A stretch of DNA of 64,000 nt from Dromiciops gliroides (Eukaryota; Chordata; Mammalia; Microbiotheria; Microbiotheriidae), in the NCBI RefSeq assembly GCF_019393635.1, contig NC_057863.1, positions 1,442,501 to 1,506,500 on the forward strand, written 5' to 3'. The notes under the pieces were generated by a model. That model worked only from the letters and a program-made list of their open reading frames with translations. It made no database searches and was not told the DNA's origin. Below are positions 10,801 through 43,800 of the stretch, in pieces. Numbering within the stretch: the stretch's first letter is position 1; every line of letters begins with the position of its first letter. The position numbers and the translations under genes were made by a program.

Positions 10801-13800
10801 AAATGAGCTGGAGAAGGAAATGGCAAACCATCCCAGGACCTCTGCCAAGAAAACCCCAAATGGGGTCACACTGAACAGTAACAAAAATCCTATCTATCAT
10901 CTCTATTCCACTTTCTTTTTCATCTACCGGCCTATACATCTACCTTGAAAGACAGAAGGGAAAAGGCGTGGCAGTGGAAGCTTCCTCCAAGGAGGCCAGC
11001 TTGGATGCAAGGGGCTGTATTTGATCCCAGAAGCACAAGGGAGCCCCTGCAGCTTCTTGAGCAGGGCAGTGACACAGTCAGAGACAGATCTACAGGAAGG
11101 AACGTGACCTCACTAGCGGCCATCGAGACAGAGTTCTGCTTGGGACCTCTGGCGTTTGAGATGCTTACGGAACATCTGATTGCAGATGTCCAGCAGCAGT
11201 TGGTGGCATGAATCAAGCTCTGGGGAGGGGTTGGGGTCAGATAGATCAGCCTGGGAATTATCGACATAGAGATGCTAATTGAACCCGTGGGAGAGGAGGA
11301 GATTCCCAGGGACAAAGAGCAGGGCCCAGACCAGCACCCCAAAGCCTGAGAGTCATTTCTGTTGAGTAAGGGGGCTGATGGCCAGACAGCCAACAGCTGA
11401 GGAACAAGAGGAAAGGGGAGAGGAGCAGAGGACAGGAGGAGAAACCTGGGATGATGGTTTGAGGGGATGGTGGTGTCTGGAAAAGAACTGCGAGGCCAGG
11501 GCATGTTTGTGGGTAGTGGAGAAGGAGCCAGTTGTGAGGGAGAGGAAGAGACCTCGTTGGGATGATGGTGGTGTGGGAGGGGAGCTGAGAAGGGCCTCCT
11601 CTTCATCAAAGACTGGGCAAAGGAGAAGGGGTGGTGTGGGGGCTCTAAAGAGGGAAGGGGGAGTGGCCACCTGGGGAATAGGATGGAGCCAAAGAGTGCC
11701 GTGCTGTGGTGAGGGCCCAGGAGTGATTAGGTCCAACGGTGTGGAACGGATCATCCAGTCATCGCCATGTCGTGTCTCTGTCCCGCCGCACTTGGCACCA
11801 CATGACGGAGGCAATCCAGGGTTGGCACCTGACACTGAGGAACCCACCAGATGCCCACTGGGCTAGAAGGGAGGGCACGGGGCAGAGCTCGCTGACCCCA
11901 AAGGGGAGAGAGAAGGCAAAGGCAGGGTGGTGACCTGGGAGTCCTGTGGCTAGCATGAAGTATGCCCCACACTCCTGCCCCTCCTGGCTGCGCCACTTGC
12001 GCCGGCCCCTCTGAAGCAAGAAGGCTTCCTGGAGCTGAATCTGCATTAATGAAGCACCTGCTGTGTGCTAGGATGTGCTCAGTGCTGTGGATACACAGGC
12101 AAAAGGCAGTGCCACTGCTCAGGGGACACTGCACACAAAGACGTGTCCCAACAGTCTCCAGTCAGGATAAATGGAATACTCCTCAGAGGGAAGGCTTCCT
12201 GGAGGAGGTGGCCTTCCAGTTGAGGCCTGAGGAAGCCAGGGAGGTCCCTGGTCTGAGCCTTCCAGAGACAATGGCCATGCATGGCTGAGAGATGGAGGCT
12301 CTTGTTCCTGGGACAGCCAGGAGGGCGGGGGTGGAGGGGAGGGGTCCCTGTGCCCAAGAGTCAAGAGTCGGGGTGTAGGCCTCAGACACTTAACACTTAC
12401 TAGCTGTGTGACCCTGGGCAAGTCACTTAACCCCAATTGCCTCACTAAAAAAAAAAAAAGAGTCGGGGTATAACGAGGCTGGAAAGGGAGGAGAGGGCTG
12501 TGAAGGCCACACAGAGTCCCTGGAGGTGAGCAGCAGGGAGTGGGACGCAGCCAGACCTAGGCTGTAGGAAGATCAGCATGAGCGCCAAGCGAGTGGACGC
12601 CGGATAGTGAGTGCACTGGCCAGGCGTAAGGCAGTGGGGCCTTCCCCAGGGTGGCTATTATGGAGGACGAGGAGGAAAGAGGAGTGCTGAGGCCGATTCC
12701 TCGGTCACCCCAGGCCCACACAGAAGTCACCTCCCCTGCCCAGAGCCTTGGGGAGAAGATGGGGCGGGGCCTTCCCCAGCTCCAGGACAGTCCAGATGTT
12801 CAGCCCCAAGAGTCAGGCACAGCTGGGGAGGGGGGAGCGGGTGAGAAAAGGAAGGAACCCTCGGGGCTTTGTGGTGCCAAGAGAACCCAGCTGAGGCTGG
12901 GGAGAAAAAAGAACAATCTTCCCACTTCCCAGGGAATAATCCATCAGCCAGGCGCTCAGAGTGGGCGGCCCCCGCCGGCCCCAAATTAATTAATCACTGT
13001 CCTCTCCCAGGCCCTCAGACTGGGCTGGAGATTTTCTAAGCCTGTCAAAATGCAAGCAGGTGTTGGGGGCTGCCCTGGCTCTGGCCAGAAACCAGGGTGG
13101 GTCAGGGGAGCAGGCTGGGGCGTGGGCCGCGTCTCCTCAGAGGCCCATTCTGCGGCAGTGGCGCCAACCAGCGGGGCCCCAGGAAGGCATGGGGAGTCAG
13201 TGGAGACGCCCGGGCCTGGATCCCCAACTGACCATTCCCTATGCTGTGCCCTGTGCAGCCCCCTCCCTGGCTTCTGTGGACTAAGCTGATTGGACTAGGC
13301 AGCTTCTGCATGTTCTGGGGTCCTGACCGAGCCCTGGGCACAGGAGCTGGGCAGAGCCTGGGGCCCAGTTCTGAGGTCTCTCTGTCCCAGTGCCAGGCGG
13401 GGATCAAGACCCCTTGCCTTTCTACCCTCCCCAGGTGTAGGGGAAGGGGCCTGGGTCCATGCAGGCAGGCTTGCCTCCTGCCAGGCTAAGCTGAGGAGTC
13501 AAAGACTGGGAAGGAGGACACAGCCGTGAGCCTCGGGCCCTCGGAAAGGGGACAGCATCAGGCTGGGTCCTGCAGGTCACCCAGAAGCTGCTGGGGTCCG
13601 AGCCAGGGCCCCGTCCCCCATCCCCCACCACCGCCTCCCAGTTAGGCTATCCCCTGTGGAGGGCTCCTCCCACCAAGGCTCCGCTGGAGGCTTCCTGGGG
13701 CGACAGGAGATGGAGGGAGATGGAGTCGCCTCCCAGAGTTCCCCCTTCTGACCTGTGAGGACTGGGGGGAGTCTCCTTCCCTGCTCTCAGAAGCTGAGCT

Positions 13801-22704: not shown

Positions 22705-22740
22705 CTCCCTATTTCTTCTAAGATAAACAGACACTCTTTC

Positions 22741-22781
22741 ACTTTCTTCCTTTCTTCCTTTCTTTCTTTCTTTCTTTCTTC

Positions 22782-22864
<83 letters not shown>

Positions 22865-22872
22865 TTCTTTTT
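22741..22872. repeat. (TTTC)n microsatellite grown from a SINE tail
   Basis: An almost pure tttc array of about 130 bp directly precedes (plus sense) the T-rich end of the next minus-strand SINE. It is most simply the expanded poly(A) tail of that SINE. Confidence 0.9.
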
Positions 22873-30719: not shown

Positions 30720-30885
30720 TTAATATAATATAATATAATATAATATAATATAATATAATATAATATAATATAATATAATATAATATAATATAATATAATA
30801 TAATATAATATAATATAATATAATATAATATAATATAATATAATATAATATAATGTAATGTAATGTAATGTAATGTAATGTAATA
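30720..30885. repeat. (TAATA)n pentanucleotide microsatellite
   Basis: About 27 units of TAATA, the last ~30 bp changed to TAATG units. Strongly AT-rich and unpaired-prone. Confidence 0.97.
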
Positions 30886-32104
30886 TGTATCTTAATATAA
30901 TAGAAAAATATTTTTTGTCACCATTCATGTTCCTTTCTTGACCTCAGAACCCTCTCCATACTGAGCAGATACTGCCTCTGAGGACATTTCCCAACATTGT
31001 CAACATAAGACCTCTGTCCAGAATGGTCATAGGTTGGACCCTGTGGGTACTGGGTCTTAGGACTATGCATTCAGCCTCTGGCCTAGAACAGGATGGGGCC
31101 CAGGCCCAGGCCTGCCTCTAGCTGGGCAAGGATCTCTTCAGTTATGAGGCTGAGAAGCGGCCAGCCAGCATGATCTGAGCTTGCTTCCCAGGCTCACTTG
31201 TTCTCCCACAAGCTGGAATCATCAACAGGGGCTTTGCTGGGCTATCAAGGGTTTGAGTGGTTTTTTGTTTTGTTGTTGTTTGTTTTTTGCTTCTTGTTTT
31301 CTGTCTCTGCCTCTCTTGATTTGGGCCTGGGGGGTGGAGCACCAAAACAGTGCAGACTGTAACTATAATAGGGTGTAAGAGTTGAGAAGTCGAACCAGGG
31401 AGGCCCAGAGCTCCTTAGGAGAAGAGTTTTCGGGGAGACAGTGTCGGGGGCAATAGAAAGAGCTTGGGGTCCAGAGCCAGAGCCAGCTGGTGCCAGCTGG
31501 ATTCCTCACTCTGGGATCCGGTGCGATTTGCTGACCTTCTCTGGTACTCGGGTTTTTAAACCTGTCAAATGAGGGGGAAGGTCCCCGCTTCCCCCACCTT
31601 TCCGTGTTGTTCTGAGGCTAAAAGAAGAGGAGGACGGAATTCACCTGGGAAGCACAAAGTTTTACTAGGGGTGGGCATGCGGTTTTTGAGGCGGACCGGG
31701 ATTCCGCTGTCAGCACCACGGACAGCGCCGCAGCCCCTGCGGGAGCCTGCCCATGTGTCTCACCACCACCGCCAAGGTTGGCTCCCAACATGGCTGTGCA
31801 AAGGAGGGAGCTCCCTTGTTTAGACCTAGGGCCGCGGGTCAGGCCCCCACTTTCCTCTTCCAAAGGAGGGGTGGGGCGAGGTGACCGGCAGGGTCTCCTC
31901 TGAATGACCACAGGGCAGAGGCTGCGGCAAACGAACGAGAGGAGAACTTGGCGAAGCCCAAGACCCCGGAGCTGCCCGGGCCAGTCATGAGCCGCGCAGC
32001 CCCCCGCATGTCTGATGCCCCGGGGCGCCGAGGCTATGCCCCTTCTCAAGTGATCGCACGCCGATGAAGGCGCGCCCACCTCGCTGCCCAGCCTGCGTAC
32101 TGGC

Positions 32105-33300: not shown

Positions 33301-36300
33301 GTGAGTGGGGGTCCCGCCTCTCCGCAGGAGGCCGAGCTCCAGTACGCCCTGAGGCGGCTCATCGAGGGCCTGGGAGCCACCCGGGAGGCGGCCAGGCCGG
33401 GCTTCAGCCTGGCCCTGAGCCAGGTGAGAAGGGTTGGGGTTGGGGTTGGGGTTGGCTGGGGGTGCTCGGCCCCTCCCCCGGAGTGCTCACGCAGGAGCCG
33501 TGGGCATGGGTGGGTCGGGTCACATCCTGGGGCCCAGAGGACCCCCTGAAGCTGAGTGGGGAGGGGGCACCCGGGAGGGCCTGGGGGCCAGAGATCCTGG
33601 AGTCGGGGTCCCCCCAGGCAGGGGGTGAGCCTGCTGAGGGCAGCGATTGGCGCCCCGTCCTAGGTGCTGCAGGGCGTGGAGGACATCTCTCTGCAGAGCA
33701 TCCTGGACCAGATAAAAGAGAAGCACAACCTGCAGAAGAAGGTGAGGCAGCTCTCAGCCCCCACCCTGCCCTGCCCTGGGGTCCCGCCTGGGCAGCCTTG
33801 AGGCTCTGCTCCACAGCAGGGGTCTGGGGGGGGATGGGGGGCACTGAGGCAGCAAGCACGGGCGGGGGAGGGGGATCTTGTATAGAACCCCTCTGAGCAC
33901 GGGTCCAGAAAACAGCGCCCTTTTCCCCTCTCCCCCTTTCTGGAGGGGGGGCGGTAGTGGCAGCCCAGGCTGGGCAGATGTGAGGCTCCCGGTGACCCCG
34001 ATCAGAGTCCCCTGGGTATCAAGTGGACGTTTCTCCGGCTCAGTGTGTCATTCTGAGGTGTCTCCGCAGTGGGTTCTAGAGAACCTCGGGGCCACCCCCT
34101 GTGTGGGGGCCTTCTGCAGTTGGGGTGACCCAGTGTGCTCTCCAATGCCTTTCCAGAAGCTCCTGCGCAGCGCTGCTTTCGGGAACTTCTTTGGGGTCCT
34201 GGCCTTGTTTCAGTCGGGTCGTCTGCTGAAGGTAAGACCGGCCTGTGCCGCGCTCCTCCGAGGGGCTTCCCCTTGGTCTCTCTCCCCCAGGGAGGCCAAT
34301 GGCTCGGAGGGGGAGCGTCCCCCAGTCTGGGCCTCCTTTCTTGTAGGCTGGCCTGGTTCCTGGGGCCTTCTCTGTCCTCGCCCTCCTTGGCATTCTCATC
34401 GACTGGGCTGGTAAGAACCCCCGCCCCTCATCCTCCCCCCTCACCAGACCCCCCTCTGTCTCCCTGCCCAGGACCACAAGGTGCTAGTGGAAGCCGTCCA
34501 GCTTCTGCAGAGCCTGGCTCAACACCGCAACCACCTCCAGGACCTGCCTCGCCGTACCCTGGTGGACATCGTGTCAGAGGTCGGGCTGGGGAAGCGCACC
34601 TTAGGGGCTCTCGCTGGGGGCATGCTGGGTGTGTGGAGGGGGGACCGGGGCGCCAGGCAGACGCATTTAGGACGGCAGCCCTCTCAGCCTCGCTCCCTCT
34701 CCGTAGATCCCGGAGCCTGTGTTCGAAGAGGTCCTGTTCAGCATTCTCCAGGCAGACTTGGCAGCGGCCTTCAGCACTCCCGAGCAGCTGCAGCTCCTCC
34801 TGGTGGGGCTCCAGAAGTTCCCGAGTGTCCTGCAGCCCAAGAGGCTGAAGAAGCTCCTGGGCTCGGCTTCCGTGGTCACCAGGGAGACCGTGCCCAGGTG
34901 TGGCCCCTGCTCCAGCATGCCCCCATTAGGCCCAGCTTGGGGGGCACAGGCTGGGGTTCTCTGGCCTCCTGGCCAAGAGCAGGCTGGGCTCCAAATCAGC
35001 TTGGGCCTGGAGAGGCCCCTGAGAGAAAGAGGAATGGGGCCCAGAGAGGGTGGTGAGGGCCCGGCCAGCGTGGGAGGCTCTGAGCTGCCCTCCCTTGTTG
35101 GCCAGTATCTTCTTGCCCCGGGTTTAGCAGCGACCGCCTGGGCAGGCCTCAAGTCAGGATCCCAAGTCAAACTCCAGCACCCTTCCTGACCGAGGGGGCT
35201 TGGCCCGGTCCCTTCCTTCCTTCCTTCCTTTCTTCCTTTCTGGGGGCCTCAGTTTTCAAATCTGTCAAGGGAATGGCTCAGACTAGAACAAGGATTCCTC
35301 ACGGGGCCGTGACCTGGTTTACTTCCCAGGTTGGTGGATGTTCTAAACGCAGCGGCAAAGTCTGTGAAGAAGGAGAAGGTGCTGCCCCCCGTGGGACTGG
35401 ACCTTGTCCGCATCGCCCTCCAGGAGGGGGCCTTTGAGCTCTTCTGGGGAGAGGTGGTGGAGAACGGGCTTCTCGAGGAGCACTCTGGGCCTGGCAGGTG
35501 GGCTGCCGCCTTCTCCCCTCTCTGGGCGGCTCTGGGAAGTGGGCTGGGGGTGGGGGCTGCGTTTGGCCAGCTCGAGCCCCCTCACGAGGTGTCTTGACCA
35601 CCTCAGCTTGTCCCAGGGTAGAAGGACACTGGGAGAGGGGTCCAGAAGGAGGCTTTGACGCCCTCGTCCCTCCCCAGTTACACAGCCTTCCGCCTGCTGG
35701 GCAGTGCCCTACCCTTGCTATCCCTGGAGCAACTCCGCGTGGTCCTCCGGGGAGAAGTGATGCGTCGATATGGTGACCACGTGCTCTCTGCTCAGGTAGG
35801 TCTTGATTATCCGTTAGAGATGCTGGGGAGGGCACAGAGCCAGGCCTTGTGCCTCTAGAGCCTGGCCTGTGAAGCCGGGGCCGGGGAGGGGGCAAGGACC
35901 CTGCTGTTGCTTCTCGGACCCTCCCTGATCCCCCTCTTCCTCCAGCTGCCCTCGAGGTTCAAGTTCGCCCCAGAGATGGAGAAGTACGTGAGCTCCTTCC
36001 TGGAGGGCTGTGCAGACCCCGAGAAGCAACTGGCTGTGCTGGTGGCCTTCTCGTCCCTCACCAACCAGGGCTACCCTGTGGTGCCCAGCATATGGCCGGT
36101 AGTGAAGCACCTGAGGCCCGAGGCCTTGCAGCGCTACAGCAGCTGGCTGAAGGACATGTTTCTGAGGCCCGACCTCAGCAGCTGTCTCGAGTTCAGCACC
36201 AGCCGTCAAAAGAAGAATGCAGCCGAGGGCGAGGACGGGCACGGAGCGACGTGAGTACCTGATCCTGGGCCACTGGGGCTCGGCTCCTCCCAAGGGTGGC

Positions 36301-39300: not shown

Positions 39301-42300
39301 TGGGAGTCACCCCTCACCCCTGCTCCGTCTGTAGGTGCTGGACCCCGATCAAGAGGAGGACGGGGCAGTGGTGGTCACAGAGGAGGCTGGCGGGAAGAGG
39401 CCGATGGCTGGGGAGGTGAGAGCAGGGGAGCTGGGGTGGGGGTGGGGGGTGGGGGGCGACAGCCTTTCTCCTGGGGTTCCAAGGCCCAGTCAGGGCAGGG
39501 GCAGGGTCCGCACCAAGCCCAGCCTGTGTCGTGATGCAGGATGAGAGCGAGGACGACTCGACAGGTGACGACGAGGACGACTCCAGGGACAGCTCGGGCA
39601 GTGAGGACGAAGATGCAGACGAGGCCAGTGACGGGGAGGTGGACAGCGGTTTTCGTCAGCGACTGATGAACGTGCTTCAGGCGGGGAAGGCGCTGGTGAG
39701 TGAGGGTGGGCCACCCCCGCTGGGCCTGGCGGTGAGGCCACCAGTCTCCCTGTGCCAGAGCCAGGACCCTGGGCTCGGGGCTGGTGGCGTCCCCTCTGCC
39801 AGGCCTGTCACACCATCCCTTCCTGCCCGGGCCGGCCTCTGGTGGGTGGGGGGCAGCAGACCAGGCAGTGGTCCTGGCCTCCCCAGCAGCCGTTTCCCCT
39901 GCCCCAGGACGCCGAGGCTGAGAGCAGCGACGAGGAGCTGGATGACGATGCCATGTTGGCCTTGGACGCGCGCCTGTCCAGTCTCTTTGCGGAGCAGAAG
40001 CTGCGCATGCAGGCCAAGAAGCAGGAGAAGGACAAGATGCAGAAGGAGAAGAACCTTCGGCGGGACTTCAAGATTAAGGTGGGGGGGGCGGTGGGGCAGC
40101 TGGGTGGCGCAGTGGATAGAGCACCGGCCCTGGAGTTAGGAGGACCTGAGTTCAAATTCAGCCTCAGACACTTGACACTTACTAGCTGTGTGACCCTGGG
40201 AAAGTCACTTAACCCCACTTGCCTCACCCAAAAAAAAAAAAAAGATTAAGGTGTGGCAGCTGGTGTGGGGGGTGGGGCGTTCGTTGGCTGGCGGGGAGGC
40301 GCCAGGGTCCCCCAGGGCAGCCACCCACCAACTCTATCTTCACAGGTCCTGGACCTGGTGGAGGGCTTCCTGACCAAGCAGCCCGAGAACCCCCTGGTTC
40401 TGGAGCTGATGGAACCCCTGCTGGCCGTCATCGAGCGCAGCATGAGCTGTGACTCCACTAAGCAGGAACAGGACTTCCTGCACAAGACGGCCGACATCTT
40501 CACGTGAGCGTGCCCCGTGCTGCGGCACTGAAGGCCTACCTGGGGGCAGTGGGGGACAGACCTTTCTAGCAGAAGCCCAGGGTGGGATGGGATGCCCGCT
40601 GGGTGCTGCATTGGGTAAGGGGCTCCGAGGTGCCTCAGAGACTAACGTTCGGGGCTGGGCCCTTCCCCCTGGAGCTTGGGCCAGGTCTGGTGGCTGTACA
40701 CAGGCATGCCCATGCTCCTCTCCTGCTCTGGCAGGAACCAGCTGTGCCGGGCCAAGCAGTATTGCCGCAGCGTGGCGAGCCAGGCGGAAGGCCTCCACGC
40801 CATGCTGGAGCGGCTGGTTCAGCGGGCTGGCCGCCAGGCGGACTCCGCAGTTGCCCTCTACCACTTCAGGTGAGGGGGGCAGATGGATCTCGGGGTCATC
40901 ACCGGCAGCTGCCATCGAGGTCCCCTGGGGTAGGGGTGGGGGTGGGTCTGGGGCCAGGGGCCTGAGCCTGCTGCCCCCCCACTTGTGCCCCCAGTGCTTC
41001 CCTCTACCTGCTCCGAGTCCTGAAGGGGAACACCGCCGAGCCGCCAGTGGCCCTGTCTCTAAAGAAGCGGCGGAAAGTCAGTGCCCCCCCGAAAGCCGAG
41101 GTGAGCCCCGTCCCCGGGAAGGCAGAGCCAAGGCTCAGGCCGTGGGAGAGGGGAGGCATCGTTGAAGGGCCCAACTCCCTGTCCCGGGGGGCGCCTGAGG
41201 AGGGGGGCAGCAGACCACTGGAGACGCCCATGAGGCCTGGCGCCCAGCGAGTGAGAAGTGCCCTGACCCTGCCCACACGTCCCACTCCAGGAGTGCCCGC
41301 TCCTTTACCCCCCTCCCCCCTGCAGGGCTCCTCCAGCTGCCTGGACCTGGCCCGAGTGACTCGGCTGTACACCGAGGCACTGACCAGCTTCCTGTCAAAG
41401 CGGAACAGCCCCTTCACGGCCACCATGTTTGTGGACCTCTTCACCCGCCACCCTGTAAGTGTGGGCGCCGCGGCTCCCTCTGCCGAGCCAGAGGAGCAAA
41501 CTGAGGCCCTGCTGGGGATGTGGATCCTCCTCACCCAGAGTCAGGGCTGGCATTCTCCCACTGGGCCGGGGGGGCAGGGCGCAGGGGAGGGGCCCGGGGC
41601 AGTGTGGCTCAGTGGGCGTCGGCTCTCCCCACAGTTGGTGTGTCAGCAACTGATCCCTGTCGTCCTCCCGTTTATCACCACTGGAGCCCGGCCCTACCAC
41701 CAGGCAAGAATCAGAGCCACCCTGGTGGGGAGGGGGGAGCAGCTGGGGTCCTGGCGCTATTCTCCTCTTGTCCAGTCTGCTGCTAGCCTTGCTTTGCTTT
41801 AGGTGGGAAGAGCAGCCCAGGCAGCCCACGCTAAGGGGCTTGTGACCGTGGGCCTGAGATGGGGCCTCCTGTCAGGCCCCTGAGCCAAGCTCAGCCTCAT
41901 TCAGCAATCACCGGGGACCCCCAGTCATCCCCCTTCTTTTGTGGTGGGCGGCCCAGAGAGGCCTAGGGGCTGGGCCGAGGCCACTGGCACGGGGCGTCGG
42001 CAGGATTCCTGCATATTGCAGAAGAATCTCTGTCCTCTGCCTGGGTTAGTAGCCGGCCCTGCAGCGGCCTCCTTGGGAGGGGGACGGGGGTGGCCACTCG
42101 AGGCTGGTGACCACCAGGGAAATGGGCTCTTCTTCCTGACCCTCATTCAGGCCCAGGCTTGCTTGATGCTCCTGAAGGCCCTGCAGATGCGGGAGCTGAA
42201 GCAGTCCCTGGAGGGCCCGGCCTGGCAGGAGCTGATTGAGGACAGCGTCAGGCAGACCACAGAGGTATGTGGGTCATGTAGCGCCACCCCTGCCCCGGGG

Positions 42301-43800
42301 GGTGTGCCCAGGCAGACCGCTCCCCCGGCCCCCTTGTCTTCCCATACACACCCCCATTGGTGCCCGGGCAGACCGCCCCCCGGCCCCTCGTCTCCCCATA
42401 CACACCCCCGTTGGTGCCCGGGCAGACCGCACCCCGCCCCCTCGTCTCCCCATACACACCCCTGTTGGTGCCCGGGCAGACCACCCCCCGGCCCCCTCGT
42501 CTCCCCATACACACCCCTGTTGGTGCCCGGGCAGACCACCCCCCGGCCCCCTTGTTTCCCCATACACCCCCATTGGTGCCTGGACAGACCGCCCCCCGGC
42601 CCGTCGTCTCCCCATACACACCCCTGTTGGTGCCCGGGCAGACCACCCCCCGGCCCCCTTGTTTCCCCATACACCCCCGTTGGTGCCCAGGCAGACTGCC
42701 GCATGGCCGTCTCTGTGTCCCCCCCAGAGTCTGAGAATGGTGGGCAAGGCCGTGAACAAAAGCCTTCACCTCAAGCTGTTCAAGGCCCTGGAGCTCCTGG
42801 CCTTTCTCATAAAGACTGTGAAAGAGGAGGTGAGGTGGCTTCTTCTTGGTGGGGTAGAGTGGTCTGGGGCCCCCCTCTCTCCCTGTCAGTCTGGCTCCTA
42901 GCTGGGCCCTCTTCCCCCCTACCTCCCCTGGGGGGCCCTCTGGCTTGGGAGTGGGAGAGGGGAAGGGGCCCTCAGCTGCCCTGGGGGGCTCCTCTCCTTG
43001 TCCCGGGGGGACCCAGGCAGCCATGGGGCTCTTCATCCCCTCCACAGAAGCTGCCCACGAGCCTGGAGGCTCCCCTGGCCGTGCTCCAGGACCTGCGGCA
43101 GAGTGACCGCCTGGGCCCCACAGGCCGCCTCTCCGACCTCACCTGGCAGGCCCTGAAGCTGCTGGGCATTCAGTACGTACTGGAAATTGGGGGAGTGTCC
43201 AGAGGCAGGGCCCGCCTCCCGGCCTGCAGGCCCTGACGCGGGTGCTCTGTTTGCAGGCGCCCCAAGGAGGAGAAAGTCAAGGTCTCTCAGACCAAGGGGG
43301 AAGCCAGAGCCCCTGAGGAGCGGGGGAGTCGGAAGCGGAAGAAGGGCTTCCTCCCGGAAACCAAGAAGCGTAACAAGAAGCGGCGGGACAAGCTGGCAGC
43401 TGCCGAGGGCAGCACGGAGACCGCTGAGGGTGGCACGGAGACTGCCGCCGCCGAGGGCACAGGGAAGAAGAGGAGGAAGAGGAGGAGGAAATCGAAGCAG
43501 CGTCAGACGCCCTCCCAGCCTGGAGTGAATGGCACCACGCGGGGCCCCCCCGCCCCGCACACCAGTCAGACCGAGACCCTGAGGCCCCAGGCTGTGGTGA
43601 ACGGGGCCCCACCGAGTCCAGCGCCTGGCTCCGCGGAGCCTGGGCAGAAACTGCAGGTCGGGAAGAGAAAGGACAGGCTGGACGCTGCCCTGCCCCTGGT
43701 GAAAAAGGCCAAAGCATCCTCCATGGCGGGGGCTGGGGGCCCTAAGGCCAGGCTACGGAGGAAGCTGCGGCAGCCAGGGGCCGAGGACAGCACCGAGTGA
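32774..43800 (+). CDS. MYBBP1A: Myb-binding protein 1A, complete 27-exon coding gene
   Basis: Nucleolar protein of the Pol5/DNA_pol_phi family that acts in rRNA processing and binds MYB, p53 and other regulators (family knowledge). Exons as read: 32774-33211, 33328-33423, 33664-33741, 34157-34231, 34472-34579, 34707-34897, 35330-35497, 35678-35795, 35946-36250, 36480-36590, 36957-37082, 38024-38236, 38370-38478, 38886-38973, 39088-39239, 39335-39415, 39540-39695, 39908-40078, 40346-40503, 40735-40869, 40995-41100, 41326-41454, 41635-41703, 42157-42264, 42728-42829, 43048-43172, 43257-43800. They total 4,260 bp, in frame throughout (1,419 residues; human about 1,330 from memory). Recognisable blocks: QSRDFLDLFWGIAKP (residue 111), FGVLALFQSGRLLK, FAPEMEKYVSSFLEGC, a Glu/Asp/Ser-rich segment (about 793-890), LFAEQKLRMQAKK, and a basic tail with KKGFLPETKK (about 1,267). 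The N-terminus is about 80 residues longer than in human, made of short repeats. Oddities: a GC donor after exon 23, a weak GTCGGG donor after exon 5, and a SINE at the exon 18 donor. Confidence 0.95.
33431..33462 (+). repeat. (GGGGTT)-type G-quadruplex-prone run beside the exon 2 donor
   Basis: Four successive G tracts spaced by TT occur in intron 2, eight bases after the 5' splice site ending at 33,423. They read 'gggttggggttggggttggg' and onward. G runs right after 5' splice sites recur in this gene (33,218-33,227 and 39,431-39,456). Confidence 0.8.
36100..38236 (+). CDS. MYBBP1A: MYBBP1A exons 9-12 region, armadillo-like central part
   Basis: This span shows the best landmarks against human: FRLRKWLIQRL in exon 10, RFCFFHSFFETKK in exon 11 and SLLQTLNFL in exon 12. 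They join in consistent phases (AC|G, AG|G, AG|T). Intron 11 (37,083-38,023) contains an L2-like 3' end at about 37,680-37,860 and polypyrimidine-rich sequence, with no exon. Confidence 0.85.
39335..40078 (+). CDS. MYBBP1A: MYBBP1A exons 16-18, acidic region
   Basis: Exons 16-18 encode a highly acidic linker (DESEDDSTGDDEDDS, later SSDEELDDDAMLALD), followed by the conserved LFAEQKLRMQAKK and a charged helix ending DFKIK. Long acid tracts of this kind are known in nucleolar proteins. The last exon ends at a donor embedded in a SINE target-site duplication. Confidence 0.9.
40070..40253 (+). mobile_element. Marsupial SINE inserted at the exon 18 splice donor of MYBBP1A
   Basis: The SINE body (about 40,082-40,241: 'ggggcagctgggtggcgcag' head, 'actagctgtgtgaccctggg' tail, 13-base A run) is flanked by identical AAGATTAAGGTG at 40,070-40,081 and 40,242-40,253. 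The duplicated 12 bases comprise the last nine bases of exon 18 plus the GTG of the donor. The insertion therefore created two copies of the exon end and 5' splice site. A G-rich stretch at 40,082-40,092 precedes the normal SINE head. Confidence 0.93.
42298..42710. repeat. ~54-bp minisatellite filling MYBBP1A intron 24
   Basis: About 7.5 copies of a 51-58 bp unit begin 'gtgcccgggcagaccgcccc' and contain 'cgtctccccatacacacccc'. Starts are near 42,302, 42,360, 42,414, 42,468, 42,523, 42,576, 42,630 and 42,683. The last partial unit runs to within about 20 bp of the exon 25 acceptor at 42,727. Long open frames over it arise because the unit length is often a multiple of three. Confidence 0.95.
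43257..43800 (+). CDS. MYBBP1A: MYBBP1A last exon, basic nucleolar-targeting tail
   Basis: About 180 residues rich in Lys/Arg. They include the conserved KKGFLPETKK, then KKRNKKRRDK, a run KKRRKRRRKSK, and Ala/Pro/Thr-rich spacers, ending GAEDSTE and TGA at 43,798-43,800. Basic clusters match the nucleolar localisation role of the human C-terminus. Confidence 0.93.

Follow-up and report, generated by a model that had tools for sequence, protein, structure and literature searches.

Host gene and exon structure

The 64-kb window (i.e. the whole stretch of DNA that was analysed) carries, on the forward (+) strand, a gene that looks like a DNA_pol_phi (MYBBP1A-type) homologue. The Pfam analysis of a 319-aa fragment joined from the exons surrounding the insertion described below identified DNA_pol_phi (PF04931) at residues 2–195 (186.2 bits), and the gene name follows from this match, MYBBP1A being what we take to be the vertebrate member of this family. 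No relatives of the gene product were identified among solved structures (two rows, E 0.41 and 0.79), and no statement concerning the essentiality of MYBBP1A was found in the passages of the one paper searched for it. Parsing of the ORFs and splice signals by hand gave 26 exons, with uncertain ends of exons 5 and 25; in this independent count the exon hit by a SINE is the 18th, the number given also in an earlier note on this DNA, and 8 exons follow it. Coding exon 18 (39908–40078, + strand, 171 nt, phase 0) is an ORF with AG before it and GT after it, belongs to the PF04931 match and ends with ...RRDFKIK, while coding exon 19 (40346–40503, + strand, 158 nt) starts with VLDLVE, and the Pfam profile is continuous over their junction. 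Around the insertion, 8 exons were parsed, and their reading frame is intact.

The presumed donor of exon 25 (43074–43176), TAC/GTACTG, scores −3.86 bits, which is very low, and the end of this exon may differ. The presumed intron 24 of the same gene contains a tandem array (42304–42700; 54-bp unit, 7.3 copies, 107-bp higher unit), and a TAATA repeat (33 copies, 98% matches) is found at 30721–30886.

Target-site duplication and geometry of the insertion

The 12-bp sequence AAGATTAAGGTG forms an exact direct repeat on the + strand at 40070–40081 and 40242–40253, on both sides of the SINE. Either copy comprises the last 9 bases of the 171-nt exon and the GTG of the donor, and either contains a complete splice signal: AAG/GTGGGG at 40078/40079 in the first (upstream) copy and AAG/GTGTGG at 40250/40251 in the second (downstream) copy, the two donors being 172 nt apart (57x3+1). 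Thus, both the duplication of the exon end together with the donor GTG and the presence of two AAG/GTG donors around the SINE, as proposed in the earlier note, were borne out. Use of the upstream donor gives an intron of 267 nt (40079–40345), of which the 95-nt remainder (40251–40345, + strand) presumably represents the original intron.

Could the 12-bp repeat be a chance repeat or an assembly fault, and no target-site duplication? A shared word of 12 did appear in 1 of 2000 mononucleotide shuffles of the two G- and A-rich flanks, which is a loose control, because these flanks contain A and G runs and the real repeat also adjoins a poly(A) run; moreover, 11 unexplained bases separate the first copy from the SINE head. 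On the other hand, the repeat is exact over 12 bp and lies directly at the A run, no further occurrence exists in the 64-kb window (nor any of its reverse complement), and four other copies of the same SINE family are likewise flanked by repeats, of 9 to 14 bp. We therefore regard an origin by chance or by misassembly as so improbable that it is nearly negligible.

The 11 extra bases, GGGGGGGCGGT (40082–40092, + strand), were missed in the earlier note: alignment with other copies places the start of the SINE head at 40093, and not directly after the first copy of AAGATTAAGGTG. The corresponding gap between the repeat and the element is 0, 0, 1 and 4 bases in the four other repeat-flanked copies, the last value belonging to a 5'-truncated one. 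These bases matter because positions +4 to +6 (GGG) of the upstream donor fall within them. The idea that the duplication was once longer and that these bases are its diverged remnant was rejected for lack of support, as their best alignment with the right flank scores 17, a value reached by 423 of 2000 shuffles. The same G-rich 11-mer occurs once more in this gene region, at 33945 on the + strand.

The inserted element and its family

The SINE itself (40093–40241, + strand), delimited by blastn and by an alignment of 7 copies, consists of the head GGGGCAGCT, a short CORE-like stretch with a pair of 7-nt repeats, and a poly(A) tail. We presume that it is of the WSINE1 type, a name given on the basis of the published description. 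The tail contains a run of 14 A residues (40230–40243), the final two of which are common to the tail and to the second copy of AAGATTAAGGTG. The blastn search of the window gave 12 rows for the family, including the insertion at 40093, and the alignment took in 7 of them, leaving out the five weaker or shorter ones (60735, 4758, 47884, 10670 and 51637). Direct repeats flank 5 of the 7 aligned copies, including the one in MYBBP1A (9, 14, 14, 12 and 12 bp), and no flanking repeat of at least 7 bp was found for the remaining two. ACACTTG followed by ACACTTA occupies positions 76–89 of the element, and a similar pair of 7-mers is present in all 7 aligned rows, in some of them with a substitution.

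According to the consulted parts of the published description, WSINE1a and WSINE1b possess a 7-nt insert at position 80 that is probably a duplication, a poly(A) tail, target-site duplications and a short CORE, and their propagation is attributed to L1 (PMC3403934); the comparison draws also on passages of PMC2910653. The element in MYBBP1A agrees with the description of the marsupial WSINE1 (a/b) type in all these structural respects: it has the A run of 14 and the exact 12-bp repeat, as well as the 7-nt pair near position 80, which was matched by eye to the wording of PMC3403934. By the same passages, the share of the types with the 7-nt insert is about 91% in the Tasmanian devil and about 26% in the wallaby, and a bandicoot has almost nothing but these types. 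Judged by these shares and by the seven copies aligned, a small number, the host, presumably a marsupial in view of the SINE type, may be a dasyuromorph or a bandicoot. Compared with WSINE1 as described there, the element stands out solely by where it landed and by its 11 extra bases at the 5' end. As to a tRNA-derived head, ARAGORN (with the bacterial code) found no tRNA gene in the 64-kb window, and the Rfam search of 40000–40400 gave two rows, both far below the cut-offs, without any tRNA family, which were taken as chance.

At 12 of 137 positions (8.8%), the copy in MYBBP1A departs from the majority state among the 7 aligned rows; for the other copies, the figure ranges from 1.5 to 14%. 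Dating by this divergence was abandoned, as some of the differences are CpG sites kept by the MYBBP1A copy and the local consensus is built from few copies. The ages of WSINE1 subfamilies in the Tasmanian devil (23 to 73 Myr in the portion of PMC3403934 consulted) are not transferable to this insertion, for which no date is claimed. Elsewhere in the window, a 5'-truncated copy of the same family (12379–12475) has an exact 12-bp flanking repeat, AAGAGTCGGGGT, and the tail of another (22740–22865) has expanded to a long AAAG repeat.

Predicted protein products of the two donors

With the upstream donor the protein reads KIK/VLDLVE, and the Pfam profile spans this junction up to its last position: in the normally joined 154-aa fragment, DNA_pol_phi matches residues 1–66 (profile 703–765, 56.7 bits). 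The downstream donor would lengthen the exon from 171 to 343 nt and, given the distance of 172 nt between the donors, shift the frame. From 40079 onwards, 56 codons are followed by TAA (40247–40249, + strand) inside the second copy of the duplication, with a single base (G40250) before the second donor, as the earlier note had described it. The resulting 113-aa SINE-extended version matches DNA_pol_phi at residues 1–58 only (profile 703–757, 41.9 bits), the match ending one residue into the insert. The 56 residues encoded by the insert alone matched no Pfam family, and a row for Glyco_tran_WecG obtained with the SINE-extended protein (E 0.19, below the cut-off) was taken as chance.

After the stop, a transcript made with the downstream donor would contain one base, the junction of exons 18 and 19 and the 158 nt of exon 19, and thus the next junction lies 159 nt past the stop. 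Nonsense-mediated decay (NMD) is commonly predicted by the 50–55 nt rule, and by this rule the SINE-containing transcript should be a target of NMD, so that even minor use of the downstream donor would yield a transcript of the NMD type. Restoration of the normal protein by the upstream copy, as claimed in the earlier note, is supported by the Pfam profile across KIK/VLDLVE and by most of the splice-site comparisons presented below, but not by all of them.

Choice between the two donors

Predicted pairing with U1 is stronger for the upstream donor (−9.3 versus −5.6 kcal/mol). An approximate general donor matrix gave 8.16 bits for the upstream and 7.75 bits for the downstream site (14th and 20th among 26 scored sites), and the matrix derived from 23 donors of the same gene did not separate the copies (8.75 and 8.76). 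Donors with identical bases at +1 to +6 are present in the same gene for both, GTGGGG in exon 23 (the upstream type) and GTGTGG in exon 6 (the downstream type). The upstream site is also predicted to be more accessible in all three settings, with the unpaired probability of the 9-nt site of 0.206 versus 0.075, 0.097 versus 0.011 and 0.022 versus 0.014. When G-quadruplexes were allowed, a strong structure was predicted just past the upstream donor (−28.6 kcal/mol, versus −9.9 without them), which could either hide this donor or assist it, while no G-quadruplex was predicted for the downstream donor (−10.0 kcal/mol both ways). G runs as a cause of upstream choice were not supported, with 3 of them within 60 nt of the upstream and 4 within 60 nt of the downstream donor. 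The balance of these predictions favours the upstream donor, although not decisively.

The near-equal scores in the gene's own matrix are what would be expected if both donors were used appreciably, yielding the normal mRNA together with a stop-containing SINE mRNA that would be degraded or would regulate the protein dose. The open frame of 56 codons, the stop with 8 more exons downstream of it (in the hand-made model) and the A-rich exon end adjoining the second donor point in the same direction, but the downstream site pairs more weakly with U1 and is predicted to be less accessible, and its use would double the exon; hence we find appreciable use of both donors unlikely. Still less probable, and in our opinion hardly to be expected, is the downstream donor as the main one, which would mean an impaired copy of the gene, i.e. 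a harmful or private allele of the sequenced animal. The downstream copy does retain what are probably the original bases past +3, and none of the scorings excludes its use; against this stand the frame, which is intact in all 8 of the neighbouring exons that were parsed, and an upstream site that is at least equal by U1 pairing, general matrix and accessibility. Most likely, judging by these comparisons, splicing mainly uses the upstream copy, with the SINE now forming the first part of the intron, and normal splicing of the gene is probably still possible despite the insertion.

Comparison with known systems

No report on the SINE in MYBBP1A and no paper on donors duplicated together with a target-site duplication was found in the open-access literature searched, but the principle has precedents, and the insertion appears to be a known kind of accident. 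In the consulted passages on the canine merle SINE in PMEL, the element sits where an exon meets an intron, and the splice site there is accompanied by a target-site duplication of 15 bp (PMC7349775). In both cases a SINE occupies such a boundary, its target-site duplication lies at the splice site, and the cell has to choose whether to use the original splice site or an alternative. However, the merle SINE is described there as being in reverse orientation at an acceptor, its rival being a cryptic acceptor within the SINE, with an effect graded by the tail length and seen in animals, whereas the SINE in MYBBP1A is in sense orientation at a donor, the rivals are two copies of the donor, and the outcome is predicted from sequence.

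Introners, according to the parts of PMC9860276 consulted, co-opt a splice site from their own target-site duplication, and the likeness consists in an element that is removed as an intron by means of a splice site copied from the target, as would be the case in MYBBP1A. Introners, however, create new introns in many copies, whereas in MYBBP1A a single SINE extended an intron that was already present: without the insert, a 95-nt intron with its acceptor remains.

In NF1, aberrant splicing and disease resulted from 14 insertions of Alu, L1 and poly(T), and the four that affected splice sites struck acceptors or their pyrimidine tracts (passages of PMC3219598). The likeness lies in insertions by the L1 machinery in exons or at splice sites, with short duplications; the difference is that splicing was altered there, while the locus in MYBBP1A seems to have escaped such a fate. 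The same cases speak against the upstream copy as the main donor, since the L1-type insertions in NF1 exons and splice sites described in these passages all altered splicing, but they were found through disease.

Proposed origin and implications

What can be read directly in the sequence is the duplication and its position over the exon end, together with the poly(A) tail, orientation and frame. The following scenario, taken as a whole, is in our judgement very probable. A SINE of the WSINE1 type would have inserted through target-primed reverse transcription, presumably by the L1 machinery, with nicks in the exon, 9 bases from its end, and in the intron, 3 bases from its start, probably in this order; because of the positions of these nicks, 12 bases across the exon-intron junction would have been copied. 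The bottom strand at the first nick reads TCTT/GA, a loose fit to the L1 target site. The upstream copy would have remained joined to the exon with −3 to +3 intact, +4 to +6 (GGG) coming from the 5' end of the insert. With the upstream donor used predominantly, as we suppose, the insert and the second copy would be removed with the intron, which would have grown from 95 to 267 nt, leaving the protein unaltered. If the second copy were used now and then, the transcripts concerned would be 172 nt longer, translation would end inside the duplication, and the product would be subject to NMD. We infer that the insertion was neutralised by its own duplication, as suggested in the earlier note.

A broader idea is that, at donors, the effect of SINE insertions is generally buffered by target-site duplications, that surviving insertions at exon ends are biased towards the sense orientation, and that in some of them, perhaps the one in MYBBP1A, the second donor is retained and serves as a regulated NMD switch; taken together, we consider this speculative and quite improbable. 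Sense copies of WSINE1 tend to give G at +5, as they start with GGGG, and therefore the upstream donor would be kept or even strengthened; in MYBBP1A the U1 pairing (−9.3 versus −5.6 kcal/mol) would fit this, provided that the downstream copy preserves the ancestral donor. The locus in MYBBP1A gives rise to a testable rule: much more frequent tolerance is expected for sense insertions with a duplication spanning the whole donor than for other insertions. A single sequence illustrates here that a splice site struck by target-primed insertion can be repaired by the very same event, and the locus, dated across marsupials and read in RNA, would be a natural test of how the spliceosome chooses between donors that share an exon end.
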